Translations under genes and position numbers: made by a program | From: a virus | Length of the DNA: 30,296 nt | Reading direction: 5' to 3' (one strand) | IMG/VR virus record: IMGVR_UViG_3300037485_000275 | Coordinates: 1 to 30,296 of that record | Notes under the pieces: model-generated | Database searches by the model: none | Told to the model about the DNA's origin: nothing | What the model saw: the letters and a program-made list of their open reading frames with translations, nothing else | In this document: piece after piece, positions 8,021 to 30,296 of the stretch | Layout of the letters: each line of letters starts with the position of its first letter | How positions within the stretch are numbered: the stretch's first letter is position 1

Positions 8021-8605
8021 CTAGATGCTACCTTGTTTTCGGTAGCTTGTCCAGTTGAAATGCAAGCCGCACCCGTTCTCACGGATTCGATCTAGAACCG
8101 CTGGTGATAGCGTAGAGGCTAGCTTCTCACGGGTGTAATTCGTAATGAGGATCGTCGGCCTTTCGTGGGCGTATCGTGCGTCGATGATAGTCGTGATCTT
8201 CTTGTTCTCGAAGTCAGTCTCGCCGCGCTCTTGGAACTCATCGATGACCAGGAGTCCAGCATCGGTGTACTTCCTCACCACCTGCATCTCGGAGAACTCG
8301 GAGTCTTGGCGGAAGGTGTCCCGAATCTCAAGGAAAAGTCCAACAGCTGTTGTGTAAATAGCGGGTCTCTCCTTCTTACCAGCGTTCCAGCCAAGACCAC
8401 CTGTTGCGTAATGCGAGTCCTGCGGTACAGCCTTGCGTGCAATCTCCCACGCCATGCGGGTCTTGCCCGTGCCATGCGCCCCGTACATCACCACAATACC
8501 CCCAGAATCGACTGTAGCGAGTCCTTGGCGGTAATGTGCCATCCACTCGTCACCAACGGCAGGAGTGGCATTCTCGTATCGTTTTGGGAAGCCCTTGAGG
8601 ATCAT
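8021..8605 (-). CDS. DnaC/IstB-like AAA+ ATPase, helicase loader candidate
   Basis: A 194-residue ATPase with Walker A GAHGTGKT at residues 42-49, Walker B LLVIDE at 118-123, a sensor-1 motif LITNYT at 153-158 and an arginine-finger-like LDRIRE at 171-176. This order and spacing are those of DnaC/DnaI/IstB loaders, which place the DnaB-type helicase on origin DNA. The usual N-terminal helicase-binding domain is short. No replicative helicase gene is seen in the window, so it would load the host helicase. It is the last gene of the minus-strand early operon, and its ATG overlaps the preceding stop. Confidence 0.8.
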   Translation of the reverse strand: MILKGFPKRYENATPAVGDEWMAHYRQGLATVDSGGIVVMYGAHGTGKTRMAWEIARKAVPQDSHYATGGLGWNAGKKERPAIYTTAVGLFLEIRDTFRQDSEFSEMQVVRKYTDAGLLVIDEFQERGETDFENKKITTIIDARYAHERPTILITNYTREKLASTLSPAVLDRIRENGCGLHFNWTSYRKQGSI

Positions 8606-8889: not shown

Positions 8890-9176
8890 TTGAAGTGTTT
8901 ATCTAGGATTGAGGTCACGCTGTATCCGCGCTCCCTGTGGTGAATCTTGCTGTAGTCTACTGGTATTGTCGGCTCGATGCGCTCGGATTCCTCGGTTCTC
9001 ACTAGCCTTTCTAGTGCCTTGGAGATCGTGGTTCCCTCACGCTTCGATAGCCTCTGTATCCGCTGGTAGGTTTCGTATGTCAATCTGAATGTGGCGGTAA
9101 TTCTCTGCTCCCAGGGCTTACTCCTTGGTCTTCCTGCGCACAATCTGAATCCATCGTCTTTGGTTTGCTTTGGCAT
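8886..9176 (-). CDS. Ribbon-helix-helix-like DNA-binding protein, 96 aa
   Basis: The segment ITATFRLTYETYQRIQRLSK, followed by REGTTISKALERLVR, has the strand-helix-helix pattern of ribbon-helix-helix (Arc/CopG) proteins: an amphipathic strand, a first helix, a G-turn and a second helix. The N-terminus is basic (AGRPRSKPWEQR). It may repress the early operon or the host. Its start lies inside the preceding 62-residue gene (97-base overlap), and the leader AAAGAACGAACA-ATG fits the phage's A/C-rich pattern. Confidence 0.65.
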   Translation of the reverse strand: MPKQTKDDGFRLCAGRPRSKPWEQRITATFRLTYETYQRIQRLSKREGTTISKALERLVRTEESERIEPTIPVDYSKIHHRERGYSVTSILDKHFK

Positions 9177-9268
9177 TGTTCGTTCTTTCTAAATATATCG
9201 TTGTAGTTGCTTCCGTAGATTGTTGGATCTACCGGCCTTGGTGCTGATCCTTTTCCTGCTCCGCTCAT
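9080..9268 (-). CDS. Small GKGSAPRP-motif phage protein, 62 aa
   Basis: The N-terminus MSGAGKGSAPRPVD followed by YGSNYNDIF is a motif I recognise from many short uncharacterised phage proteins. Its ATG overlaps the preceding stop (ATGA). After about residue 30 the frame runs into the next gene, overlapping it by 97 bases; the C-terminal part (PKTMDSDCAQ...) has no recognisable pattern and may be a read-through tail following loss of an earlier stop. Function unknown. Confidence 0.55.
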   Translation of the reverse strand: MSGAGKGSAPRPVDPTIYGSNYNDIFRKNEQCQSKPKTMDSDCAQEDQGVSPGSRELPPHSD

Positions 9269-9474
9269 AGGTCGATGTCGGTGAATTGTTTCAGTTGTCG
9301 TTCGATGCGATCCATCCTAGTGGTCATGCTGGCGATAGCGGACTCCACCTGTGCGTCGAGGTCTAGTGCTTGCGCTCTCCACCTTTCGGCTTCCTTGCGC
9401 CACCATTCCATCTTGGCGATGGCATCGTTCTTCTCTTCGATTATCTTGTCTATTGCTGTATCTATTGCATTCAT
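9265..9474 (-). CDS. Small coiled-coil protein, 69 aa
   Basis: Almost entirely amphipathic helix with heptad-like hydrophobic spacing (IDTAIDKIIEEKNDAIAKM, then RMDRIERQLKQF). No catalytic motif. The leader AAAACAACAACAACC-ATG is a clean A/C repeat. It follows another coiled-coil gene with a 4-base overlap; the two might form a complex. Function unknown. Confidence 0.6.
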   Translation of the reverse strand: MNAIDTAIDKIIEEKNDAIAKMEWWRKEAERWRAQALDLDAQVESAIASMTTRMDRIERQLKQFTDIDL

Positions 9475-9929
9475 GGTTGTTGTTGTTTTAGTTGTTCATT
9501 TTCAGCTTTAAGTGTTCGGCACACGCTTGACAGGCGGTAGACCTCATGCACAGATTCTAGCCTGCGGTAGAGGTTCTCGTTTTCGTGGGTAAGTTCTTTG
9601 ACCTGTTCCCGTACCTCGTCCCGCTCGCGCTCAAGACGCTCCACCTTACCACGCAAGTCGCATTCACGCTCGGCGGACATGCCAAGCAGTCTGGCTTGTT
9701 CTTCCAGTTCCGCTTTCCAGCCATCCCGCTCTTTCCTCACATCATTGAGTTGCTGTTCTTGAAGTTGGAAAAGCCCACGGCGAAATTCCAAATCGGATTG
9801 CAGCTCGTCACGCTCGCTTTCAAGACGGCGGGCAAGCGTTCGCATTTCGGAATAGCATTTTTCCGTCGAGGCTAATTGCTCATAGGTAAGTGATCTAACA
9901 AGTTCGTCTGTTTCTGGTGTATTGTTCAT
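9471..9929 (-). CDS. Coiled-coil protein, 152 aa
   Basis: From MNNTPETDELVRSL onward the protein is a long charged coiled coil (LARRLESERDELQSDLEF, RKERDGWKAELEEQA, VERLERERDEVREQVKEL). The N-terminus NNTPETDEL with a following aromatic/charged stretch is common in phage early proteins annotated only as hypothetical. I place the start at 9929 rather than an upstream in-frame codon (9998) that overlaps a separate 34-residue membrane gene. The C-terminus LKQQQP is encoded by the CAA repeat that leads into the next start. Confidence 0.62.
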   Translation of the reverse strand: MNNTPETDELVRSLTYEQLASTEKCYSEMRTLARRLESERDELQSDLEFRRGLFQLQEQQLNDVRKERDGWKAELEEQARLLGMSAERECDLRGKVERLERERDEVREQVKELTHENENLYRRLESVHEVYRLSSVCRTLKAENEQLKQQQP

Positions 9930-9933
9930 GGTA

Positions 9934-10038
9934 TTATTGCCAGTAGTCGTCGCCACTTGCCTTGTAGATGATATAGCCAAGCAAGGCAACCATTCCAATC
10001 ATCACGAGGATGACGACGACCACTGGGGTTAAGTTCAT
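9934..10038 (-). CDS. Single-pass membrane microprotein, 34 aa
   Basis: Translation starts MNLTPVVVVILVMIGMVALL and continues GYIIYKASGDDYWQ. One transmembrane helix (residues 4-24) with a short soluble tail. It fills the gap between two early genes exactly (5 bases before the next start, 2 bases after the preceding stop), which supports expression. Function unknown; early phage membrane microproteins may alter host envelope or block superinfection. Confidence 0.5.
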   Translation of the reverse strand: MNLTPVVVVILVMIGMVALLGYIIYKASGDDYWQ

Positions 10039-10040
10039 AA

Positions 10041-10247
10041 TCATGCAGCTTTAGTCATTCGATAGCGAGCAAAGGTCTTGCCATTCTGCTTTGCCATCTC
10101 GGTGACAATCGGGAATCCCGCCTTACGCAGTTCCTCGATCCTTGCTGACAACCTCATGCAGCCCCATTTCTCAAGGGCTTGAAGAGGAGTGATTCCATAG
10201 CCGCGCATGAGCCATGACTCAAGTCTGTGTGTGATGCTCTTTTTCAT
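10041..10247 (-). CDS. Helix-turn-helix protein, HTH_39-like, 68 aa
   Basis: The pattern GYGITPLQALEKWGCMRLSA, then RIEELRKAGFPI, ending in ARYRM, is typical of the small HTH_39 domain (PF14090) found in phages: 'T..eAl..wG..RLsarI.eLr..G.pI'. It is a probable DNA-binding regulator or excisionase-like factor. It is coupled upstream by an ATGA overlap. Confidence 0.7.
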   Translation of the reverse strand: MKKSITHRLESWLMRGYGITPLQALEKWGCMRLSARIEELRKAGFPIVTEMAKQNGKTFARYRMTKAA

Positions 10248-10447
10248 AGCTCGTATGCGTCAACTTCTTCTTCTTTCGGGGTGGTGAAATAGAACTTCTC
10301 GTTGAGTTCTAACATGACAGCATCGTAGACCGCTTCTTGAATCTGATCCAAGGTTGGGTCATCTGTATGCTTGAATGCTCTCTGTGTTCCTCGGCGGCAA
10401 CCTGTTTCTAGGCACTCGCTGATGATTGCGTAGTAGTTTGGTGTCAT
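10244..10447 (-). CDS. Hypothetical protein, 67 aa
   Basis: Not recognised. It contains MTPNYYAIISECLETGCRRG, then a predicted helix-rich segment (TLDQIQEAVYDAVMLELNEKF) and an acidic tail EEEVDAYEL. The leader CAAGAAACGAAACA-ATG lies inside the end of the preceding gene. Coupled on both sides by 4-base overlaps. Confidence 0.6.
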   Translation of the reverse strand: MTPNYYAIISECLETGCRRGTQRAFKHTDDPTLDQIQEAVYDAVMLELNEKFYFTTPKEEEVDAYEL

Positions 10448-10710
10448 TGTTTCGTTTCTTGTTTTTTGGTTTCTCCGTATACTAGTTTATGCTCGCACCT
10501 ACGAACATCCCCTAGTAACTGAAAGAATTCTGTCGCAAATTCCTCGGAGGTCAATGCGGAAAGTTGTTTTTGGAGGCATTTCTTGCACTCGCGGCCACCA
10601 CGGGCTGTTTCTGGACACCCTGCGTTGAAGCACCCAGAGTATGTTGTGGGCCAGAATGGATGCTGATACCAGATATCCGAAACTAGGTTAGCGATCTTGT
10701 CTTCTTTCAT
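10444..10710 (-). CDS. Hypothetical zinc-finger-like protein, 88 aa
   Basis: Four cysteines (Cys27, Cys32, Cys42, Cys45; CX4C-X9-CX2C) suggest a small zinc-binding site, with aromatic N-terminal sequence SDIWYQHPFWPTTYSG. The C-terminus (GETKKQETKQ) is low complexity because it is encoded by the A/C-rich leader of the next gene. Function unknown. Confidence 0.55.
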   Translation of the reverse strand: MKEDKIANLVSDIWYQHPFWPTTYSGCFNAGCPETARGGRECKKCLQKQLSALTSEEFATEFFQLLGDVRRCEHKLVYGETKKQETKQ

Positions 10711-11159
10711 TGTTTCGTTCCGTAGGTTGCGATAAGTAATGCGTCCGCTGTGGCGTGGGTAATCTTGCGGTCTGGAAATAGCTCTTGTGCCTTACGCTTG
10801 GAGACATTCTTGTCGCCCTTCGTCATGCATCCAAGTGCCTTCTGCCAGACTTGTGGGCGCACCCGCTCGAAGGGTATTCCTGCGGCTGTGAGTGCCATCT
10901 CAAGGTTTCCGTAGCCTCGACCAAAACTGAAACTTGAGACCACACCCATTTGCGGACTGGAGGAGACAGCCTCGATGTAGGCCTTGTATTTCCTGCCATC
11001 CAGCGATGACCGAGGATGATTCGTGATGTCGCGGATAAGCTCCCAAAGATCCTGTAGCGTGTCTGGCATCTTCTCGACGCATGCCTTGCCGTCAGATGTT
11101 ATCCACGCGATTCCTCCGTTGGCTCCAGGATCTACCCCGATGATGGTTTCGTATTTCAT
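10707..11159 (-). CDS. RuvC-like Holliday junction resolvase
   Basis: A 150-residue RNase H-fold nuclease. GVDPGANGGIAW at residues 8-19 supplies Asp10, YIEAV supplies Glu63, and the C-terminal HATADALLIA supplies Asp139, matching the acidic catalytic set of RuvC. The middle SFGRGYGNLEMALTAAGIP and VRPQVWQKAL are also family-like. It would resolve branched DNA made by replication and RecE/RecT-type recombination before packaging. It is coupled to the Mom-like gene upstream. Confidence 0.82.
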   Translation of the reverse strand: MKYETIIGVDPGANGGIAWITSDGKACVEKMPDTLQDLWELIRDITNHPRSSLDGRKYKAYIEAVSSSPQMGVVSSFSFGRGYGNLEMALTAAGIPFERVRPQVWQKALGCMTKGDKNVSKRKAQELFPDRKITHATADALLIATYGTKQ

Positions 11160-11833
11160 ATTGATAGCGCTGATTGGGTTTCGATTGCTGATGATATTTC
11201 GTATCTCATGCTTTCCCCTTTTGGGTATGGTTCCTGATCGTATTTCAGTGCCGTTCTCATTTCTGCCCTTTGTTTCTTGCTTCCGTGGAGATAAACATAC
11301 CTGTGCTTTCTCGATCTCTCTTCTAGATAGAAATCATCACCGTATGTATCCCTCATCCATTGCGCCCTGTTTTTTACGCCACGGCTCTTGTCTGCTATTG
11401 TTGCTCCATGAAGATGTTCCATTCCCCTTACCTTCCAGTCCGTCCTCTTTGCACTCAATCCAGTGTAGATAAAGTTTGTGGCTTGATAGACATAGCCGAT
11501 ATGTCCTTGGGCGGTGTCGGCGTAGCTTACAACTATAGAAGGAGATGGCAGCATCCTGATTGACCTTCCGACCAGAAGGCTTGCCATATTTTTCTCATTG
11601 GTGCAGCACAATCTATTTAGCTCAAGCACCATGCTTGACCATTCTTTCCCAGCTATTCCATCTCGGAGTGGAGCTGATGATGGTATTCCGAATGTCACGA
11701 CTCCAATCATCAGGCTGCCTTTGAATGCCCCAAACGCAAAGGATATTGGACACATCCTTTTGGCATAGTGCCTTGAAAGCAACCAAGGGGCGGCTTCGTT
11801 AGCGGTTATACTTATGACATTTACTCCATCCAC
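11156..11833 (-). CDS. Mom-like DNA-modification protein (adenine N6 modification family)
   Basis: A 225-residue protein. Recognisable family blocks are RHYAKRMCPISFAFGAFKG (21-39), VTFGIPSSAPLRDGI (46-60), VLELNRLC (69-76) and VVSYADTAQGHIGYVYQATN (101-120), then FIYTGLSAKRTDW. These match the GNAT-like Mom family, whose phage Mu founder converts adenine in DNA to N6-methylcarbamoyl-adenine and so blocks many restriction enzymes. The start is GTG at 11833, overlapping the preceding gene by 13 bases; no closer ATG precedes the conserved region. Its position between early small genes and the resolvase implies early expression. Specificity and true product are not provable from sequence. Confidence 0.75.
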   Translation of the reverse strand: MDGVNVISITANEAAPWLLSRHYAKRMCPISFAFGAFKGSLMIGVVTFGIPSSAPLRDGIAGKEWSSMVLELNRLCCTNEKNMASLLVGRSIRMLPSPSIVVSYADTAQGHIGYVYQATNFIYTGLSAKRTDWKVRGMEHLHGATIADKSRGVKNRAQWMRDTYGDDFYLEERSRKHRYVYLHGSKKQRAEMRTALKYDQEPYPKGESMRYEISSAIETQSALSI

Positions 11834-12027
11834 AGCTTAAGTTTTAGCTTCTTCGCTAGTCCTATGACAGCATCCACCTCGTTCTCGTCCGAGTTATTGA
11901 ATCGTGTCTCCGACTTGAATGCCACCCATTTCCCATCCTCGCGGCGAATAGTCTTAATGTTCTTCTTGAGCATCCACTTTAGGCGCGGTGATAGTTCTTC
12001 TGGTAGGTCTGGGAATAGTCCGCTCAT
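11821..12027 (-). CDS. Hypothetical protein, 68 aa
   Basis: Not recognised. It has a basic, helical start (FPDLPEELSPRLKWMLKKNI), then WVAFKSETRFNNSDENEVDA and a C-terminal amphipathic helix (VIGLAKKLKLKLWME). Coupled by ATGA to the gene before and overlapping the Mom-like start by 13 bases, so it might be a Mom co-factor or simply an operon neighbour. Confidence 0.6.
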   Translation of the reverse strand: MSGLFPDLPEELSPRLKWMLKKNIKTIRREDGKWVAFKSETRFNNSDENEVDAVIGLAKKLKLKLWME

Positions 12028-12236
12028 CGTGGTTCTGCTAGGATTAGTTCCGACTTGTGACGCGCCACCTCGTAGCCCTTGCCAGTGTCGATGATGACGG
12101 CATCACAGCCTTCCATGTCACGCAGGACATTCTTCATCCATTGCATTTCGTGTTCAAACTCTTGTCGGTATGGTGTGGTAAGTGAGAGATACCCGTTATT
12201 CAAGGCATCCATTGGTGTTAGTATTTCAAATTGCAT
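12024..12236 (-). CDS. Hypothetical protein, 70 aa
   Basis: Begins MQFEILTPMDALNNGYLSLT; the middle is helical with MQWMKNVLRDMEGCDAVIID and the end is acidic. The start at 12236 is preferred to an in-frame ATG at 12290 because it has the phage's typical leader (CCAAAACACAACA-ATG). No family assigned. Confidence 0.58.
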   Translation of the reverse strand: MQFEILTPMDALNNGYLSLTTPYRQEFEHEMQWMKNVLRDMEGCDAVIIDTGKGYEVARHKSELILAEPR

Positions 12237-12324
12237 TGTTGTGTTTTGGAAAATGGTTGCCCTGCGATAAACCCACGGGCCATGGGACATGAACTTCCGT
12301 TATCGCTCGGATGATTGGTCTAGA

Positions 12325-12633
12325 TCAAAAGGGGATGGCTCCGTCTTCATCATCATCCCACTTGTCGGGCTGAAGCGTCTGTTTGATAAAGCTGGGCTTC
12401 TGCGCCTCCCAGTCAACGATCTTGCAGTTTCCAAGGATCGGGCCTTTTTCTCCAGCCGCTTTGCGCTCCTTGCTTATCTTCTGGACGACGAATCCATCAT
12501 ACCCATACTGATCTTTCTCCTCGCGGATTAGGACGCTGATGTTAAGATACTTCTTCCCGTTCTTCGGGGATTCATACAGGGCGGTCTTGTCGATCTTGGT
12601 TGTGTCCAAGCTAATGTCTATTGTTTGTTTCAT
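12325..12633 (-). CDS. SSB-like single-stranded DNA-binding protein
   Basis: A 102-residue protein with a predicted beta-rich OB-like body (IDISLDTTKI..., KYLNISVLIREEKDQYGYDG) and a C-terminal acidic tail DDDEDGAIPF (93-102). A tail of Asp/Glu ending in a hydrophobic PF is the hallmark by which SSB proteins recruit replication and repair partners. Position next to the RecE-like nuclease and RecT-like annealase fits. The body is too divergent for me to assign the OB fold with certainty. Confidence 0.72.
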   Translation of the reverse strand: MKQTIDISLDTTKIDKTALYESPKNGKKYLNISVLIREEKDQYGYDGFVVQKISKERKAAGEKGPILGNCKIVDWEAQKPSFIKQTLQPDKWDDDEDGAIPF

Positions 12634-13433
12634 ATGTATTTCGGTGTTTCAATAATTGCGATTCCTTCAACAGCTTTCGGCCATGTGTCGGTTGCAACAC
12701 AGGTTTGCCATTTCGCTATGGCATTCATGTATCCTGCCCGACCAATGTCAATTAAATTTTCGGACAATTCCACCCACGCCGTTTCGTGTGGATGGTCGGT
12801 TTCGAGGAAGCAGAAGACGAATCTTGTGCGCTTCTCTCCGCTTGCGGCATTCCATAGGTCGAGGTACAAGGCGGATTGCCAGTGCATCCCTCGGTTCACG
12901 ATGTTCCTCTGGAGGTTGTCCAGGCTGTCGATGCTGGCGGTAGTCTTGAGGTCGATAAGGCAATCCAGACCAGTCGGCACGATGTCAATCATGCCCTTGA
13001 CCTCGGTTTCCCCAATCTTTCCGAAGACTGCGACTTCGGTTTGCATGTTTTTGTAAGAACCAAAGTGCTGGGCGTAGTCCTCATGGAATGCCTCGGCGGC
13101 GTATCTTGATATTATTTCATCCTCCTCCGTGACTACGATCTTCCCAGCCTCGCGCTGTAAATCCCTCCATTCCCGCGCCTCCTTGGTTCGGTAGTCCACA
13201 TAGGGGCTGACCGCTACAAGCGATTCTAGGGGCTTTTCTGGCTCAAGAACGGCATAATGGATGAGCGTGCCTAGTTCCATCGCCTTGGAAGACTCCTTAT
13301 TCCGCCCGTGAAGCCACTTGTAGGGGCTTTTGTGGAAGTCAAAGAGCAGGGATTTGCTCACCGGCCCGCCCCTTGGATTGAGGCGGGTTGCTGTGCGGCT
13401 GTAGTAGTCTTGGCAGTTTGTTTCGATTTTCAT
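12630..13433 (-). CDS. RecE-like PD-(D/E)XK exonuclease
   Basis: A 267-residue protein starting MKIETNCQDYYSR at 13433. Catalytic core: GTLIHYAVL (His59), QTEVAVFGKI (Glu133), KGMIDIVP (Asp150) and LIDLKTTA (Asp161, Lys163), followed by the Q-x-x-x-Y motif in MHWQSALYLDL (about 186-190). This is the order of the RecE/exonuclease VIII-type PDDEXK family. It would degrade one strand from DNA ends to feed the RecT-like annealase. I reject a 330-residue version that starts at 13622, because it runs through a separate small gene; the ATG at 13433 overlaps that gene's stop. Confidence 0.82.
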   Translation of the reverse strand: MKIETNCQDYYSRTATRLNPRGGPVSKSLLFDFHKSPYKWLHGRNKESSKAMELGTLIHYAVLEPEKPLESLVAVSPYVDYRTKEAREWRDLQREAGKIVVTEEDEIISRYAAEAFHEDYAQHFGSYKNMQTEVAVFGKIGETEVKGMIDIVPTGLDCLIDLKTTASIDSLDNLQRNIVNRGMHWQSALYLDLWNAASGEKRTRFVFCFLETDHPHETAWVELSENLIDIGRAGYMNAIAKWQTCVATDTWPKAVEGIAIIETPKYI

Positions 13434-13588
13434 CGGATGAAGTGTCGGATTGTTTCGATTGTTTTGTGAAGCCAGCCAGCATTTGGGGCGGCGTTGCGTC
13501 CGAGTGCTTGGATGAGTGCCAAGGTTAGCTCCGCATCCCGCCCGATTACTCGGACGGGTGTGCTGAATGGTGTGTGGGTGACTCTCAT
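13430..13588 (-). CDS. Hypothetical protein, 52 aa
   Basis: Reads MRVTHTPFSTPVRVIGRDAE, followed by a helical LTLALIQALGRN and a C-terminal HKTIETIRHFIR. Its ATG overlaps the previous stop and its TGA overlaps the nuclease ATG, so it is coupled on both sides and likely real despite its size. No family recognised. Confidence 0.52.
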   Translation of the reverse strand: MRVTHTPFSTPVRVIGRDAELTLALIQALGRNAAPNAGWLHKTIETIRHFIR

Positions 13589-13782
13589 GGCTCAACCTCC
13601 TCTCGTACTTCAAGCATGGCATCTGCCACCAGATACGCGTATTTCACTGCCGTTCGAGCGACTCGAAATTCGCATATTGCCCCAGAGAGGGCTTGGCATG
13701 CGAACCAGTCGCGCAGAGACACCCCATCAAATGCCCCAGGACTCGGAAATGCTGGGCCTCCTTCCCATATTTTATTGCTCAT
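13585..13782 (-). CDS. Conserved small phage protein, GGxAFP...SLRDWFA type, 65 aa
   Basis: The pattern GGPAFPSPGAFDGVSLRDWF, then ACQALSGAI and AYLVADAMLEVR, recurs in many phage early regions next to recombination genes. Biochemical role unknown to me. Coupled by ATGA overlaps to RecT upstream and the 52-residue gene downstream. Confidence 0.66.
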   Translation of the reverse strand: MSNKIWEGGPAFPSPGAFDGVSLRDWFACQALSGAICEFRVARTAVKYAYLVADAMLEVREEVEP

Positions 13783-14594
13783 GGTTGTGCCTCCTTGGCC
13801 ATTGCTTCAAATGCGTCCGCGATCTTCTCGGCGTGTGCTTTGACATTGCTTTTGGGTTTAGCCTCGGGCTTGGGTTCCTCGACGATAACCTCAACATCCT
13901 GCACGACGACCTCGGGTTCTTCTGGTTCGGGTTCCGCCACGAATGGGTTTACTTTGGCGGGTGTTACATTGCGCGGAGGCTCGGCAAAGTCTCGCACCTC
14001 GTCTTGCGTATACATGCCCAGAGACATATCCGAAGCATAAGCACGACTCCAGAACGAAGCGGCGCGGTATCGGAGCATCTGACCAGGCATGGTAAGCCAT
14101 TTGCTCCCGTTCTTTGTGCTCCAGCCTTCTTTCTTTGCCATCTCTAGCGTGATGCGCTCGCCTTTTAGCTCTTCGCCTGTTGCCATATCACGGGCCACGG
14201 CATAGCACCAAGTCGGGGCTTCGTCGCTGTCAAACACGAAACGCAGAGGGCTGAACTTGCCGCTTGCGTTGATCATGCCAATAAGCGCAGTCGCTGACCA
14301 TGATGGACGCCCGTGGATGATCGCCAAGTTTTGGCAGACCATGAGCGGGTCAAGCCTTGTGCGCTTTGCCACATTGAGAGCAATCGCGCAGTTTGCCACA
14401 TTGCCGGCAAAGTCCTTGGGGACTAGCGTTGACTTGCTCAACATCATTGCTTGTCTCTGGACTAGCTCAAACGCCTGTGTTTCAGCCGCTACTTGTGCGA
14501 GAATGCCCGAGGTTTGCGGTTCCTGTGCCGCAATCACTTCTTGTTTTTGTGTGTCGTTGTTTTCCATTTCGTTTTTGGGGTTAGGGTTAGACAT
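13779..14594 (-). CDS. RecT-like single-strand annealing protein
   Basis: A 271-residue protein. Conserved core: LVPKDFAGNVANCAIALNVA (about 57-76), LDPLMVCQNLAIIHGRPSWS, then GMINASGKFSPL, GWSTKNGSKWLTMPGQMLRY and SFWSRAYASDMSLGMYTQDE. These are RecT/Bet-type annealase signatures. The C-terminal 70 residues are Pro/Glu/Val-rich and end in a charged helix, probably a flexible partner-binding tail. The first ATG (14594) overlaps the preceding gene; an internal ATG at 14567 has a typical CCTAACCCCAAAAACGAA leader and may be the real start (262 residues). It pairs with the RecE-like nuclease and SSB for strand annealing recombination. Confidence 0.8.
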   Translation of the reverse strand: MSNPNPKNEMENNDTQKQEVIAAQEPQTSGILAQVAAETQAFELVQRQAMMLSKSTLVPKDFAGNVANCAIALNVAKRTRLDPLMVCQNLAIIHGRPSWSATALIGMINASGKFSPLRFVFDSDEAPTWCYAVARDMATGEELKGERITLEMAKKEGWSTKNGSKWLTMPGQMLRYRAASFWSRAYASDMSLGMYTQDEVRDFAEPPRNVTPAKVNPFVAEPEPEEPEVVVQDVEVIVEEPKPEAKPKSNVKAHAEKIADAFEAMAKEAQP

Positions 14595-14814
14595 AGAGGT
14601 TCAATTCGATTCGGCAAACCGAAATATCGGAGGGTTTGGTTATTGGTTCGGATTCATCACGCCGATCATCGTTGAACAATCGTGCGATCATCCTCGCCGC
14701 TCCATTGAATGTGGGCTTGGGGGCTGATCTCTTACGAATAAACGAGTAAGTCGCTTCGTATGCTTGTCCGTTTCTGCAATAATGCAATGCTGTTATGTTT
14801 AGTAGTTGTTTCAT
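14587..14814 (-). CDS. Hypothetical protein, 75 aa
   Basis: Starts MKQLLNITALHYCRNGQAYE and continues with a basic stretch (FIRKRSAPKPTFNGAARMIA). Leader CCCAACCCCAAAACAACG-ATG fits the A/C-rich pattern, supporting translation. No family recognised. Confidence 0.58.
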   Translation of the reverse strand: MKQLLNITALHYCRNGQAYEATYSFIRKRSAPKPTFNGAARMIARLFNDDRRDESEPITKPSDISVCRIELNLYV

Positions 14815-14882
14815 CGTTGTTTTGGGGTTGGGTTGTGGTTATTCTGGTTTGTTTTCCATTCTTTCCAAGCAAAAATGTGAGT

Positions 14883-15221
14883 TTATGCAATTTTTTCTAG
14901 GGGTTCGGGTTCTAATCCCGTCGAATTCGATGGGTTTGAATGCTGGCATTGGGCGGCGATTCCCGCGACAATCCGCGCAAAGTTGGGATCTAGCTCGGCT
15001 CGGTTCAGCACGCGCTCACGGGCATACATCGCGGTGTTATGGCAAGTTCTGTTGACTCGGTTCGTGGCGTCTTGGAATGCGTGGTGATCGCTCCAAAGTG
15101 CCATGACCACTTGCCGCGCCAAGGCCATCGTTTTATGCCTTGTTGGGCCTAAAATGCCCTCCTCGGTCACGTCAAAAGCCCGTGCCGTCTCCGTGAGTAA
15201 CTTGTCGAAATTGGCGATCAT
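14883..15221 (-). CDS. DnaA domain IV-like replication initiator protein, 112 aa
   Basis: Residues about 7-70 follow the DnaA C-terminal DNA-binding domain: AFDVTEEGILGPTRHKTMAL, then ARQVVMALW (35-43) and the signature-like HNTAMYARERVL (61-72), where DnaA has DHTTVxHAxxK. The AAA+ part of DnaA is absent, so it should bind DNA without ATP-driven melting. The tail (residues 78-112) is unrelated. Together with the helicase loader at 8021 and DnaA-box-like sites at 18.2-18.8 kb, it suggests origin recognition by the phage. Confidence 0.72.
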   Translation of the reverse strand: MIANFDKLLTETARAFDVTEEGILGPTRHKTMALARQVVMALWSDHHAFQDATNRVNRTCHNTAMYARERVLNRAELDPNFARIVAGIAAQCQHSNPSNSTGLEPEPLEKIA

Positions 15222-15319
15222 AGGCTAGTCCCTCCGTTTACAAGCCACAAGAGCAGGACGATAATAAGAAGCCAGACACAGCCCCAAAGTGACTCTTCTT
15301 CGTGCGGTGAATAGCTCAT
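15218..15319 (-). CDS. Single-pass membrane microprotein, 33 aa
   Basis: MSYSPHEEESLWGCVWLLII followed by VLLLWLVNGGTSL: an acidic N-terminus and one strong transmembrane helix (about residues 11-27). The ATG overlaps the preceding stop and its stop overlaps the DnaA-like start, so it is coupled on both sides. A longer in-frame version from 15412 is rejected because it lies within the preceding gene. Function unknown. Confidence 0.5.
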   Translation of the reverse strand: MSYSPHEEESLWGCVWLLIIVLLLWLVNGGTSL

Positions 15320-15525
15320 GCGGCCCTTTCCTTTCTGCGATTTGAGCGTAAGAGCTTTGCGAACTCTCGGCGTTCGATTTGGATTCCATTGCACCCGATC
15401 ATCAAGATGCAATGCTTCATAGCAAAGCCCTTGTCGGTGATGATGTTGACGCGCTCATTATAAAAGGGACTTTCCAATATATACGAGCGGCTTCGATTAT
15501 CTAGTCGTTTTGATGTTATTTTCAT
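15316..15525 (-). CDS. Hypothetical basic protein, 69 aa
   Basis: Reads MKITSKRLDNRSRSYILESP, a beta-rich middle (NERVNIITDKGFAMKHCIL) and a basic C-terminal helix (REFAKLLRSNRRKERAA), so nucleic-acid binding is possible. The start at 15525 has the GAAAACGAAACAGA-ATG leader and overlaps the preceding stop. No family recognised. Confidence 0.55.
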   Translation of the reverse strand: MKITSKRLDNRSRSYILESPFYNERVNIITDKGFAMKHCILMIGCNGIQIERREFAKLLRSNRRKERAA

Positions 15526-15683
15526 TCTGTTTCGTTTTCGGTTCGTGTTTCGTTTGTTTCTGTTTCCCAGGCGTGAGGTTCGTCCCAGCATGGTTCATCT
15601 TCGGCATCTGTCCCGCAGACATAGCAGGACGGGTTGCCATGCCATGATCCGCATCGGGAACATTGAAAGTCGGCGGTTGTCAT
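15522..15683 (-). CDS. Small zinc-ribbon protein, 53 aa
   Basis: Two CxxC knuckles (Cys8-Cys11 in FQCSRCGSWHG and Cys20-Cys23 in SCYVCGTD) are spaced as a small zinc ribbon; an acidic region follows. The last residues (a Glu/Thr/Asn repeat, ETNETRTENETE) are coded by the GAAAC repeat that serves as leader of the next gene. Coupled by ATGA overlaps. Function unknown; protein or nucleic-acid binding is likely. Confidence 0.58.
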   Translation of the reverse strand: MTTADFQCSRCGSWHGNPSCYVCGTDAEDEPCWDEPHAWETETNETRTENETE

Positions 15684-15880
15684 GCTTCATTCTTTCCATT
15701 TCTTATGATTTCCATCTTCCATCCGTGCAGATTGGCTGTCTTGTCCATCGCTCGGTTTAGCTCACGGGCAATCGTCTTCGGCGTGATATGTGATCCGTCC
15801 AAGTCCCACCTATCGAGCGGGCGAAAGCGGTTTTCGGTGCAGTCCCAGAGCATGGGGCCAAGTTTAATTTGGTATGTCAT
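15680..15880 (-). CDS. Hypothetical protein, 66 aa
   Basis: MTYQIKLGPMLWDCTENRFR leads into DRWDLDGSHITPKTIARELN and a C-terminal helix/strand (GWKMEIIRNGK). Possibly a small alpha/beta fold. Coupled by 4-base overlaps on both sides. No family recognised. Confidence 0.58.
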   Translation of the reverse strand: MTYQIKLGPMLWDCTENRFRPLDRWDLDGSHITPKTIARELNRAMDKTANLHGWKMEIIRNGKNEA

Positions 15881-16038
15881 GGCTCAGCCTTTCCTTTTGT
15901 GTTTAGTGTCGGTAGATAGTCAGATGGCCGCGCAAGGCGGTATCTTTTAAGGTTCACCCTCCGCGCCATCTTGTCGGACAATTCGGCAACCGCTTTCCCC
16001 GTTAAGGTGTCAATCACGACAAAGGTGTTTTCGCTCAT
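15877..16038 (-). CDS. Hypothetical protein, 53 aa
   Basis: Translation starts MSENTFVVIDTLTGKAVAEL and has a basic middle (DKMARRVNLKRYRLARPSD). The pattern 'VIDT.TGK.V' followed by Arg-rich sequence is common in small phage proteins of unknown role. Coupled by ATGA overlaps to both neighbours, which supports expression. Confidence 0.52.
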   Translation of the reverse strand: MSENTFVVIDTLTGKAVAELSDKMARRVNLKRYRLARPSDYLPTLNTKGKAEP

Positions 16039-16436
16039 GGCTCAGCCCTCCCTTCCGCCTTGGCGATCGCCAAAAGAAGATCGTTCCTTGTTCCAGATAT
16101 AAAGTCGGCGTTGTAGTCAATCCCGCCTGCTTCTTCGTGCTCCTTCCCAAGCAGGAAAAGCATCGCCTCGGCATCTTTCAAGGCCGCCAGCAGTTCAGGC
16201 GCGGTGGCGATAAGTCGGGCGTTTGCCCACATTTCCTCCACATCATGGACATGAGGCCAGCCGGAATCCTTCGACTGGTGTTGGACTTGTGCGATGATCT
16301 TGTCACCTTGCCCAATGTGGGTGTGGGTGAATTCCCATCTCTCCCCATCGTCATCAGTGATTGTCATGGTTGGCGTGTTTACATATCCACGATGGATGCA
16401 CCACGGGCCGCTTGTGTGTGTGTGTATCGTTGTCAT
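16035..16436 (-). CDS. Conserved phage protein with ANARLIATAPELLAAL motif, 133 aa
   Basis: N-terminal SGPWCIHRGY and a central ANARLIATAPELLAALKDAE are hallmarks of a very common phage early protein family of unknown function: a small beta domain followed by a helical segment. Many His residues in HTHTSG and HTHIG. Leader AACAAAACGAAAAC-ATG is A/C-rich. No enzymatic motif visible. Confidence 0.66.
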   Translation of the reverse strand: MTTIHTHTSGPWCIHRGYVNTPTMTITDDDGERWEFTHTHIGQGDKIIAQVQHQSKDSGWPHVHDVEEMWANARLIATAPELLAALKDAEAMLFLLGKEHEEAGGIDYNADFISGTRNDLLLAIAKAEGRAEP

Positions 16437-16462
16437 GTTTTCGTTTTGTTTAGTCTCATCAG

Positions 16463-16494
16463 TGCGGGGCTGACCCGCAGACGGCTCCCGCCGT
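16463..16494 (-). promoter_or_regulatory. Two adjacent GC-rich hairpins in an operon gap
   Basis: TGCGGG/CCCGCA (16463-16468 with 16474-16479, 5-base loop) and ACGGC/GCCGT (16481-16485 with 16490-16494, 4-base loop) lie side by side in the 67-base gap before the gene at 16035. No T-tract follows on the minus strand, so mRNA processing, pausing or attenuation is more likely than full termination. Confidence 0.4.
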
Positions 16495-16503
16495 TTCGAC
16501 TTG

Positions 16504-16797
16504 TTAGCCTCTCACGAATACATGCTCGCCACTTGGCAGTACTCCATGAGAGAAATCGGAGAGCTTGCCCCAGCCTTCGGCCTTGTCCCCGTAAAATTTG
16601 CGGTCTTGATCGACCAGGTGGTCGAGGTAAAGGCTCACGCATGAGGCGTAGACTTCCCCGCCGCTCAGCTCGTGAGGGTAAGGGTAGGATTTCCGCCCCC
16701 GTTGGCTTTTGACTTGAATTACGGAACCGCGTCTTTCAGTCGCTCCAATGTATTTCGCGGTGATTGAGGCGAGCGGCATTGCATTTTTAGTTTTCAT
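16504..16797 (-). CDS. Hypothetical protein, 97 aa
   Basis: MKTKNAMPLASITAKYIGAT, followed by a basic beta-rich part (GSVIQVKSQRGRKSYPYPHE) and a helical GGEVYASCVSLYLDHLVDQD. Leader AAAAATAACAACGATAC-ATG. The order 'rGrkSypyp.el..ge.a...Aa..yl' is seen in other phage early proteins of unknown role. No catalytic motif visible. Confidence 0.6.
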   Translation of the reverse strand: MKTKNAMPLASITAKYIGATERRGSVIQVKSQRGRKSYPYPHELSGGEVYASCVSLYLDHLVDQDRKFYGDKAEGWGKLSDFSHGVLPSGEHVFVRG

Positions 16798-16860
16798 GTA
16801 TCGTTGTTATTTTTAAGGTTATTTCGCCCTGCTTCGCGGGTCGCGCCTGTCTTGTGGATG

Positions 16861-16885
16861 GCTTGCCAATAAGTTAGGGGCAAGC
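16861..16885 (-). promoter_or_regulatory. Perfect 7-bp hairpin in a 108-base operon gap
   Basis: GCTTGCC (16861-16867) and GGCAAGC (16879-16885) enclose an 11-base loop in the gap between the 41-residue membrane gene and the gene starting at 16797. No T-tract on either strand. It may control read-through or transcript stability. Confidence 0.35.
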
Positions 16886-16905
16886 AAGGAAAAAGAATGG
16901 AAACT

Positions 16906-17031
16906 TTAGAGTCCCGCCGCACGCTTGAAAAGTTCAAGGTCGGATGGCCCGCATGCCCCGCCACAAATGGCAATGGCAATGACCAGGCAAGCCACAAGGA
17001 CAACGGCAAGGAATAGGTCACGGATAGTCAT
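16906..17031 (-). CDS. Single-pass membrane or lipoprotein-like microprotein, 41 aa
   Basis: MTIRDLFLAVVLVACLVIAI followed by AICGGACGPSDLELF: one strong N-terminal hydrophobic helix (residues 6-23) with Cys15, Cys23 and Cys27. It could be a membrane anchor or a short lipoprotein, though the lipobox is not clean. The ATG overlaps the stop of the preceding gene (ATGA), which favours this frame over a 75-residue ORF in another frame of the same DNA. Function unknown. Confidence 0.5.
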   Translation of the reverse strand: MTIRDLFLAVVLVACLVIAIAICGGACGPSDLELFKRAAGL

Positions 17032-17261
17032 GCGTCCCCCTTTCCACTTGCCGCTTTCAAGTTAGCAATGGCTGCGACCTTATCCAAACCCCAAACCGGA
17101 GCGGATGTCTTGCGGATGCCGTTATGATAGTAAGCAATGAATCCATCCCTCGTGAAGCCTGACGGATGCCCTGACTTTATCAGGACTGGCTCCGTCATGA
17201 TCTTATCAGGTAAGCCACTCATAAAGTTGAATGTTTCGACTAGTTTCGTTTTCGTTGTCAT
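17028..17261 (-). CDS. Hypothetical protein, 77 aa
   Basis: MTTKTKLVETFNFMSGLPDK, a central GHPSGFTRDGFIAYYHNGIR and a C-terminal helix (LDKVAAIANLKAAS). The leader is a strict repeat, AAACCAAACCAAACCAAACC-ATG, with no purine-rich Shine-Dalgarno sequence. No family recognised. Confidence 0.58.
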   Translation of the reverse strand: MTTKTKLVETFNFMSGLPDKIMTEPVLIKSGHPSGFTRDGFIAYYHNGIRKTSAPVWGLDKVAAIANLKAASGKGDA

Positions 17262-17279
17262 GGTTTGGTTTGGTTTGGT
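17262..17279 (-). repeat. Tandem (AAACC)n leader repeat
   Basis: On the minus strand the unit AAACC is repeated nearly four times directly before the ATG at 17261. It is the clearest example of the A/C-rich leaders that precede most genes here. It lies exactly where a ribosome-binding site should be, so it probably replaces one. Confidence 0.6.
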
Positions 17280-17432
17280 TTAAGCGATGCCGTGCAAATT
17301 ACGCTTTGCCCTTGTCGCTTGTGATTTCCATCCGGCACGAATGCCGTGCCATGCCGTAGGATTTTCTTTCAGCATCTTTTCAGCGTGTGCTATTTCCGCT
17401 TTTAGTGTCGCTTTGTTCTTTTTTGTTTTCAT
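17280..17432 (-). CDS. Small basic protein, 50 aa
   Basis: MKTKKNKATLKAEIAHAEKM, then LKENPTAWHGIRAGWKSQAT and a basic end (RAKRNLHGIA). Lys/Arg-rich and helical, so it may bind nucleic acid. Leader CCAAACCAAACACAACG-ATG supports translation. No family recognised. Confidence 0.52.
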   Translation of the reverse strand: MKTKKNKATLKAEIAHAEKMLKENPTAWHGIRAGWKSQATRAKRNLHGIA

Positions 17433-17450
17433 CGTTGTGTTTGGTTTGGA

Positions 17451-17642
17451 TTATTGGTTTTCAAGGTTGCAAACTGCGACCATGCCTTGAAAGATTTGAA
17501 CCTTAAGCATTTCGACTTCATTTTGATACTCGTATTCGCTCATATCTGATTCCAGATATTTGCGGTCGAGCCTATCAATCGCGCGTTCATATTTGCGCTC
17601 AAGGTAGGATTCAAGGTCACTCGCGATTTGTTGTGTTGTCAT
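17451..17642 (-). CDS. Small charged helical protein, 63 aa
   Basis: MTTQQIASDLESYLERKYER followed by IDRLDRKYLESDMSEYEYQN and a C-terminal EVEMLKVQIFQG: mostly amphipathic helix with many Glu/Arg/Tyr. Could be a small dimerising helical protein. Leader AAATAATCCACACC-ATG. No family recognised. Confidence 0.58.
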   Translation of the reverse strand: MTTQQIASDLESYLERKYERAIDRLDRKYLESDMSEYEYQNEVEMLKVQIFQGMVAVCNLENQ

Positions 17643-17650
17643 GGTGTGGA

Positions 17651-17878
17651 TTATTTGGATTTGGTGATCGCGACAAGGGAAAGGAACCTCTCACGAGTGG
17701 CTTGTGGTGTGCCTTGTGGGTGAGCCGCCCAAATTGAGTGAGCCATAGCCTTTACGAAACGCGAAGGTTTATCGCCCCCGCATTTAACCCATTGACCGCA
17801 TTGAAGCTTCAATTGTCCGCGAAGGATCGCCTCTTGTATTCCAGACTCCCAAAGATTGATTGTTGGTAGATATTTCAT
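17651..17878 (-). CDS. Hypothetical protein, 75 aa, first gene of the early operon
   Basis: MKYLPTINLWESGIQEAILR, then GQLKLQCGQWVKCGGDKPSR and a helical end (TPQATRERFLSLVAITKSK). The phrase 'G.L..qcGQWV.c.......FV' looks like a small recognised phage-hypothetical pattern, with two Cys. It lies nearest the leftward promoter candidate and should be transcribed first. Leader ACAAACAACGATACAAA-ATG. Confidence 0.58.
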   Translation of the reverse strand: MKYLPTINLWESGIQEAILRGQLKLQCGQWVKCGGDKPSRFVKAMAHSIWAAHPQGTPQATRERFLSLVAITKSK

Positions 17879-17926
17879 TTTGTATCGTTGTTTGTTTGGT
17901 GTGCCTTGTTTGCTGGCAACGAGATC

Positions 17927-17955
17927 AATCTAGAATATGGTTTTTAATTTGCCAA
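17927..17955 (-). promoter_or_regulatory. Candidate sigma70-type promoter for the early operon
   Basis: On the minus strand, TTGGCA (17955-17950; 5 of 6 to TTGACA) and TAGATT (17932-17927; 4 of 6 to TATAAT) are separated by 17 bases of AT-rich spacer. Transcription would start about 40 bases before the first early gene (ATG at 17878). The host sigma factor is unknown. Confidence 0.5.
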
Positions 17956-18130
17956 TAAAATCTTTTATCAGATTGAAAATAAATCGAACATTTAAGCTTG
18001 CCAAGTCGCGAAACCACTTATTTCAAGGCATTTCAAGCAATCTCAACACATCAAACAAATCTCACGAAAAACGAGAATTCACACAGAAGCGGGAAACAAA
18101 AGCAAAGAACGAGCGGAGAAGCATACAGAA

Positions 18131-18163
18131 AAGTATCAGAGAAGTATCAGAGAAACATCAGAT
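18131..18163 (+). repeat. Three 11-bp tandem repeats
   Basis: AAGTATCAGAG (18131-18141), AAGTATCAGAG (18142-18152) and the variant AAACATCAGAT (18153-18163) follow with a strict 11-base period, about one helical turn, so a protein could bind the same DNA face repeatedly. They lie in the non-coding origin-like region. Confidence 0.65.
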
Positions 18164-18447
18164 AACAACCAGATAATCCATTCCATCTAATGAAGGAAAA
18201 TCCACAACGCGAGGGAATCGATGGCTTAAGCAATTGATCACTTTAATCATGCCAGTGCGCACATCACGCTATGGCGCGATGGCTTACTGATGGGGATTAC
18301 GCTTGAAGCGTATTATAGTGATGCACCAAAAAGTGTCAAGTTTTTCGTATTTGCCAATAAATTCCAAGCACTAGGCAATGCCACAAGATACAGCCCGAAC
18401 ATGGCGAAACAAGGCATGGAATCCACATGTAGTATGCATCGCGGGAA

Positions 18448-18524
18448 TGTTCCACAGACATCGCGTGGAACACAAGTCGACGCACCATGGCACAGCTGTG
18501 AATGTTCCACGGAAATGTTCCACA
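18448..18524. repeat. Cluster of four TGTTCCAC motifs (DnaA-box-like)
   Basis: TGTTCCACA at 18448-18456, its inverted copy (GTGGAACA, 18465-18472), TGTTCCACG at 18503-18511 and TGTTCCACA at 18516-18524. Each differs from the classical box TTATCCACA at two or three positions. Related xAATCCACA sites occur at 18198-18206 and 18419-18427, and on the opposite strand at 18829-18837. They may be sites for the phage DnaA-like protein. Confidence 0.55.
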
Positions 18525-18642
18525 GAGCCGGCAATACATTAGCGCCTAGCTAATCATTAGTAGCCTGGTCATGTATCACCGCCCCCATCGAATGATTCAA
18601 ACGATTGTTTAATATTCACGGAGCACGAGACACGCATGGCCA

Positions 18643-18679
18643 CATGAACACGCACGCATGAACACTGCACGCATGAACA
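18643..18679 (+). repeat. Iteron-like CATGAACA repeats
   Basis: CATGAACA occurs at 18643-18650, 18657-18664 and 18672-18679, spaced 14 and 15 bases apart; the last two share the 13-mer GCACGCATGAACA. They directly precede a G-run and a GGTCGCGACC palindrome. The layout resembles short iterons bound by replication initiators. Confidence 0.6.
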
Positions 18680-18743
18680 GCACCGGGGGGGCGGGGGTCG
18701 CGACCGGCGATGATCGTAACACTGCCATCCATAAACAAGCCAG

Positions 18744-18806
18744 ACAAAAAATGCCTAAATGGGGCAAGCGTGGTTTAGCCGTCCCCACAAAAAATGGCTA
18801 ACTGGG
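18744..18806 (+). repeat. Pair of 20-bp direct repeats
   Basis: ACAAAAAATGCCTAAATGGG (18744-18763) and ACAAAAAATGGCTAACTGGG (18787-18806) match at 18 of 20 positions with a 43-base period. TTAGCC before the second copy and GGCTAA inside it can also pair as a 6-bp stem. Role unknown; binding site or duplicated promoter element. Confidence 0.55.
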
Positions 18807-18866
18807 CGACCTACTATCGGAGAATTGTTGTGGATTTCCGCGTTAGTGGGTTGCGTTACGAAGTTG

Positions 18867-18895
18867 TTGACATGGTGCATGATTTATCATAGGTT
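18867..18895 (+). promoter_or_regulatory. Candidate late promoter for the rightward block
   Basis: A perfect TTGACA (18867-18872) is followed after 17 bases by TAGGTT (18890-18895; weak -10). The spacer carries a 12-base palindrome, ATGAT-TT-ATCAT (18879-18890), that could be an operator. The weak -10 suggests dependence on an activator. It lies about 45 bases before the first gene of the rightward block. Confidence 0.4.
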
Positions 18896-18941
18896 GCGTT
18901 TGAGCCTGTCCGAGTTGGGTGGGTGAAACCTTTATTATTTT

Positions 18942-19199
18942 ATGGCATCACCTGTATCCTGGGATTTACAAGGCCAAGGCGGAGGCACAGTCCTTAACGC
19001 TGGCACTACTTACACTGGTCCGATTCGTTGGGTTCAAGTTGTGACTGATACTGTACTGTCTGCTCTTACTAGCCCTACTGGTGCGATTGCGAATCCTACT
19101 CGATTGGTTGGACCTACGCTTGCTGGTGGTCTTGGTATTGGTGGTAAGTTTAGTTCCATCACGGTTACCTCTGGTGTGGTTATCGTTTACTTCGAGTAA
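18942..19199 (+). CDS. Small virion-associated protein candidate, 85 aa
   Basis: MASPVSWDLQGQGGGTVLNA, then GTTYTGPIRWVQVVTDTVLS and a C-terminal beta stretch (SSITVTSGVVIVYFE). The all-beta composition and 'TGPIRWVQVVTDTV' style resemble small phage structural proteins encoded next to tail genes. Its stop overlaps the nozzle ATG (TAATG). A head or tail decoration role is inferred from context only. Confidence 0.6.
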   Translation: MASPVSWDLQGQGGGTVLNAGTTYTGPIRWVQVVTDTVLSALTSPTGAIANPTRLVGPTLAGGLGIGGKFSSITVTSGVVIVYFE

Positions 19200-29787: not shown

Positions 29788-30296
29788 ATGAAAAGTGCTG
29801 AAAAGAAAAAGCCAGAGCAGATGCTCGATGTCAAGGAAATATCTCAATATCTGGATTACTTGCCAGAAACTGGGGATTTTATCTGGAAGGTTAAAACAAA
29901 AACCAACAAAGTCGGGAATATTGCTGGAAACACGAATTGGCGTGGATACACTTCAATTTGGATAAATGGAATGCAATATTACGCCCATCGTCTTGCTTGG
30001 GCTTTACACTATGGTTCTTGGCCTAATTGTGACATTGACCACATTAACGAGAATAAATCCGACAATAGGATTTGCAATCTTAGGCACGCGAACAGATCGC
30101 AAAACATGTTTAATAGAGGCAAGAACAAAAATAACACCTCTGGATTCAAGGGCGTAGCATTTTGTAAAGACACTGGTAGATGGAGAGCGCAAATAAGCAT
30201 TTATAAAAAATCCATAAAGATTGGGAGGTTCGATACAAAGGAAGAAGCCTCTCGTGCTTATTTAGAAAAAGCCAAAGAGCTGAGAGGAGAGTTTGC
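29788..30296 (+). CDS. HNH endonuclease with AP2 DNA-binding domain (3' end cut by window)
   Basis: At least 169 residues, open to the edge. HRLAWALHYG and CDIDHINENKSDNRICNLR (His67, Asp84, His85, Asn93) form the HNH core, and SGFKGVAFCKDTGRWRA through YKKSIKIGRFDTKEEASRAY (about 118-158) is an AP2 domain, the usual architecture of phage HNH homing endonucleases. It stands right after the terminase small subunit, the typical insertion place between terminase genes. Leader ACACAATACATAAACTACT is A/C-rich. Confidence 0.82.
   Translation, partial: MKSAEKKKPEQMLDVKEISQYLDYLPETGDFIWKVKTKTNKVGNIAGNTNWRGYTSIWINGMQYYAHRLAWALHYGSWPNCDIDHINENKSDNRICNLRHANRSQNMFNRGKNKNNTSGFKGVAFCKDTGRWRAQISIYKKSIKIGRFDTKEEASRAYLEKAKELRGEF

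Follow-up and report, generated by a model that had tools for sequence, protein, structure and literature searches.

A Mom-family gene in a replication and recombination gene cluster of a metagenomic virus

The IMG/VR record IMGVR_UViG_3300037485_000275, a metagenomic and possibly fragmentary sequence whose entire 30,296 bases form the window analysed here, encodes a real member of the Mom family of DNA-modification enzymes, a relative of the Mom protein of phage Mu. This identification is solid. By analogy with Mu, we further consider it very likely that the gene, mom, specifies a catalytically intact enzyme that is made together with replication and recombination proteins and modifies adenines of the phage DNA against restriction. 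An HNH endonuclease gene runs off the far end of the record, which is therefore probably incomplete there.

Family identity, predicted fold and active site

The protein aligns with positions 4-202 of the 202-position Pfam Mom model PF25680 at 130.9 bits, the curated cut-off being 27.1 bits, and also matches phrog_1384, 'Mom-like DNA modification protein' (Table 1). Up to an E of 1, PF25680 was the only Pfam model that it matched, and none of the general acetyltransferase models did. Among solved structures compared by plain sequence, Mu Mom (8bv8) matched at 1e-8 and the next entry at 0.26; in a pairwise comparison, identity to Mu Mom (NP_050657.1) was 27% over 209 aa (E 3e-13). A weak match of residues 6-149 to the XF1762 family (NF045478; 9.9e-8) scored 31.9 bits, under the curated cut-off of 50 bits. 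An AlphaFold2 model built from 36 sequences (the record and IMG/VR loci) had a mean pLDDT of 85.7 and a pTM of 0.79 and was poor only at the C-terminal tail. With this model, Foldseek ranked two chains of 8bv8 first and second (8.6e-11 and 9.1e-11) and a third entry at 1.4e-4, with GNAT acetyltransferases in the ranks below 8bv8, and VIA-align gave Mu Mom a Z of 18.6, with an rmsd of 3.6 across 178 residues, while the second-best entry reached a Z of 12.2. The predicted fold is of the GNAT type, and among solved structures Mu Mom is the nearest to the model by a wide margin. An earlier note on this DNA, made from its letters, had proposed a Mom-like gene here and a structural comparison with Mu Mom as the check; with PF25680, phrog_1384 and 8bv8 in agreement, the last both by sequence and by fold, that proposal is borne out.

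The reading frame is real rather than a chance occurrence, because it has the Pfam Mom score, relatives in IMG/VR at 42-88% identity and a low dN/dS. In codon comparisons, dN/dS was about 0.05 relative to the nearest relative, L002, at a dS of 1.4, which is near synonymous saturation, and 0.03-0.1 for other close pairs in the family; mom is under strong purifying selection and is maintained as a protein. The peptide blocks VLELNRLC and IVVSYADTAQGHIGYVYQATN were both found exactly in the translation, and position, start codon, length and the 13-base overlap of the mom start with the upstream open reading frame were likewise as the note had described them. Both the GTG start and this overlap recur in the close relatives L002 and L003, and the annotated start is therefore probably right.

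The PDB title of 8bv8 names S124A an 'inactive mutant'. In an alignment of 65 distinct sequences, Mu Mom among them, this serine (S124 in the 241-residue numbering) corresponds to S85 of the record's protein and is invariant (65/65), as are H22, Y23, E71, L72, R74, S103, A105, D106, Y116 and Q117. The N of the ELNR motif is kept in 64 of the 65, and the residues of the H-Y, ELNR, S-x-A-D and YQ motifs are all present in the record's protein. Annotated phage homologues retain nearly all conserved positions, with single sequences (CRP-902) departing at N73, S103 and D106. A mutational study of Mu Mom reportedly named R101, D139 and Y149; were that numbering to begin 10 residues further on, these residues would coincide with conserved positions, which we take as a lead only. 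Conservation and this mutational work suggest the roles of the active-site residues other than S124, and since all of the putative residues are kept, the enzyme is predicted to be catalytically intact.

Compared with Mu Mom, the record's protein shows whole-length homology, the GNAT-type fold and the putative active-site residues including the serine, but the long extension at the N terminus of Mu Mom is missing from it, and its region around residues 127-165, a stretch in which homologues differ in length and sequence, is longer. Comparison of L057-L075, L077-L079 and L081 with L020-L037 revealed two length forms of Mom, of 204 aa and about 222 aa, with very similar N-terminal halves; they differ opposite residues 127-165, where the long form reads GLSAKRTDWK...EHLHGAT... 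and the short form GTTKERTDMAGEDGKHSRH... The differing segment looks swapped and could set target specificity.

Gene cluster and its counterparts in relatives

The gene lies in a cluster of small minus-strand genes in which small open reading frames without a family are set between replication and recombination genes (Table 1). Its stop overlaps the downstream RuvC-like gene by 4 bases. The open reading frame directly downstream of the RuvC-like gene carries a pattern of four cysteines, SGCFNAGCPETARGGRECKKC, with which its product might bind zinc; up to an E of 1, Pfam offered no match for it. The earlier note had placed mom in an early small-gene operon beside a RuvC-like resolvase; the small-gene cluster and the RuvC-like neighbour are present, whereas early expression is what the gene content would suggest.

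Table 1. Features of the mom cluster and of the end of the record (coordinates of mom include the stop codon).
Feature	Position	Strand	Details
DnaC-like helicase loader, distal end of mom cluster	8021..8605	minus	phrog_50 2.7e-38
88-aa ORF with four-cysteine pattern	10444..10710	minus	
RuvC-like Holliday-junction resolvase	10707..11159	minus	phrog_1770 9.5e-26, phrog_159 2.5e-5
mom, Mom-family GNAT-fold DNA-modification enzyme	11156..11833	minus	225 aa, GTG start; PF25680 6.5e-38, phrog_1384 9.8e-50, 8bv8
68-aa protein, no confident family match	11821..12027	minus	81% identical and position kept in L002, L003
88-aa protein, no confident family match	12024..12290	minus	also upstream of mom in L002, L003
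102-aa protein, phrog_24909	12325..12633	minus	2.2e-9
RecE/exonuclease VIII-like PDDEXK nuclease	12630..13622	minus	PF12684 4.8e-20, phrog_412 5.6e-49
RecT-like single-strand annealing protein	13779..14594	minus	phrog_561 1.7e-69
HNH endonuclease, runs off record end	29788..30296	plus	phrog_99 1e-68

In L002 and L003 the local gene order of the mom region is kept as far as the contigs reach. In more distant relatives mom still lies in a DNA-metabolism cluster with other neighbours (AAA_25, DnaB, Toprim, DUF1376, RusA and RtcB). At two of these loci, L052 and L054, an RtcB-type RNA ligase gene begins right at the end of mom (RtcB 2.2e-59 in L052). The phage collection held no DNA nearly identical to positions 9000-21000 of the record, and 271 phage records carry a Mom relative at <60% identity, several of them annotated as Mom-like and some as 'acetyltransferase'. 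In Roseobacter CRP-902, mom stands beside a helicase and a VRR-nuclease, the latter overlapping it; in Microbacterium WaterT it is beside DNA polymerase I; in Listeria LP-026 and LP-124 and Acinetobacter JeffCo it has small-gene surroundings; and in Bacillus Riggi it adjoins the terminase large-subunit gene. The Mom-like proteins of these six are about 36-46% identical to that of the record, and their settings are likewise mostly of the small-gene or DNA-metabolism kind, but the neighbours differ from those in the record. Mom genes are thus already known in many phages, often among small DNA-metabolism genes. The non-late position, which the earlier note had contrasted with that in Mu, is not unusual outside Mu and cannot count as a novelty, given the comparable clusters in CRP-902, LP-026, LP-124, JeffCo and WaterT. 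Matches of Mom relatives in genome contigs were scattered, mostly to metagenome bins and at <=49% identity, and no host is claimed.

Regulation

Expression of Mu mom is under the control of Com, a translational activator. It is also controlled through Dam/OxyR sites, with three GATC sites, that lie upstream of its promoter (PMC10434257). Neither a Com activator nor an upstream GATC cluster, the elements of a Mu-type regulated operon, was found in the record. When all six frames of the 30-kb record were searched with the Com zinc ribbon PF10122, nothing matched up to an E of 1. The record may be a fragment but does include the position overlapping the mom start, and the open reading frame at that position matched no family. 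GATC is absent between 11313 and 12323; with the mom start at 11833, this leaves about 490 upstream bases free of the site. In this respect, as in its replication and recombination setting, the gene is unlike mom of Mu; in the Riggi study, too, neither C nor Com was identified by the authors (PMC3853051). To the earlier note, a GTG start combined with a 13-base overlap had hinted at controlled expression. However, 10 of the 17 gene junctions examined in the cluster overlap by 4 bases and one more by 8, and special translational control finds no support there. Overlapping genes being the norm here, the 13 shared bases suggest translational coupling of an ordinary kind.

Proposed function and alternative readings

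Mom enzymes are GNAT-superfamily acyltransferases that act on adenine N6 and are encoded by phages as well as bacteria (PMC7824862, jumbo phage review). In the mechanism that we favour, Mom would be produced together with the replication and recombination proteins of the phage, a view consistent with the recurrence of its homologues beside DnaB, AAA_25, Toprim, DUF1376, RusA and DNA polymerase I. The GNAT-type active site would then, by analogy with Mu, transfer a small group to adenine N6 of the replicating phage genome, and the modified DNA, once packaged, would resist host restriction enzymes. Mu Mom, whose product is N6-(methylcarbamoyl)adenine, masks the viral DNA from bacterial restriction enzymes. 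Because identity to Mu Mom is only 27% and the region 127-165 is variable, neither the group that is added nor the target context need be that of Mu. On these same grounds, a Mom-fold enzyme with the same anti-restriction role might add another group, or act on another base or in another sequence context; we regard this as possible but rather unlikely, since no active-site residue of Mu Mom has been lost and the fold comparison places Mu Mom well ahead of other GNATs. This possibility is a variant within the favoured explanation, and the confidence placed in the two overlaps.

It is very unlikely that the protein is an ordinary GNAT acetyltransferase that acts on a protein or small molecule and has been mislabelled as Mom. 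Its fold is that of a GNAT and some phage homologues bear the label 'acetyltransferase', but the Mom model is the only one in Pfam to respond, the margin in Z favours Mom and the catalytic serine of Mom is kept. Equally small is the chance of a self/non-self pair made up of Mom and the RuvC-like nuclease next to it, with Mom marking the DNA of the phage and the nuclease cutting DNA that lacks the mark. The overlap of the two genes, their adjacency in L002, the VRR-nuclease overlapping mom in CRP-902 and the Mom-REase fusions of jumbo phages, for which self/non-self marking and cutting has been predicted (PMC7824862), would accord with such a pair. However, of the 80 IMG/VR loci only 9 have a RuvC-like gene close to mom, and its distance from mom varies, which rules out a conserved partnership; resolvases of the RuvC type are also standard components of clusters like this one. 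We give hardly any credence to the combined reading of a Mom with a non-Mu modification or context, its specificity set by the region 127-165, that is paired with the adjacent nuclease for self/non-self discrimination.

The favoured explanation, an intact Mom-family enzyme that would protect phage DNA, leaves the picture of the family unchanged. The record adds a well-supported, non-Mu, Com-less Mom to a family whose only solved structure found is 8bv8, which helps annotation and the selection of a new Mom for tests. Together with its relatives, it indicates that replication and recombination genes are common companions of Mom. If the enzyme is active, many restriction enzymes would be blind to the DNA of this phage.
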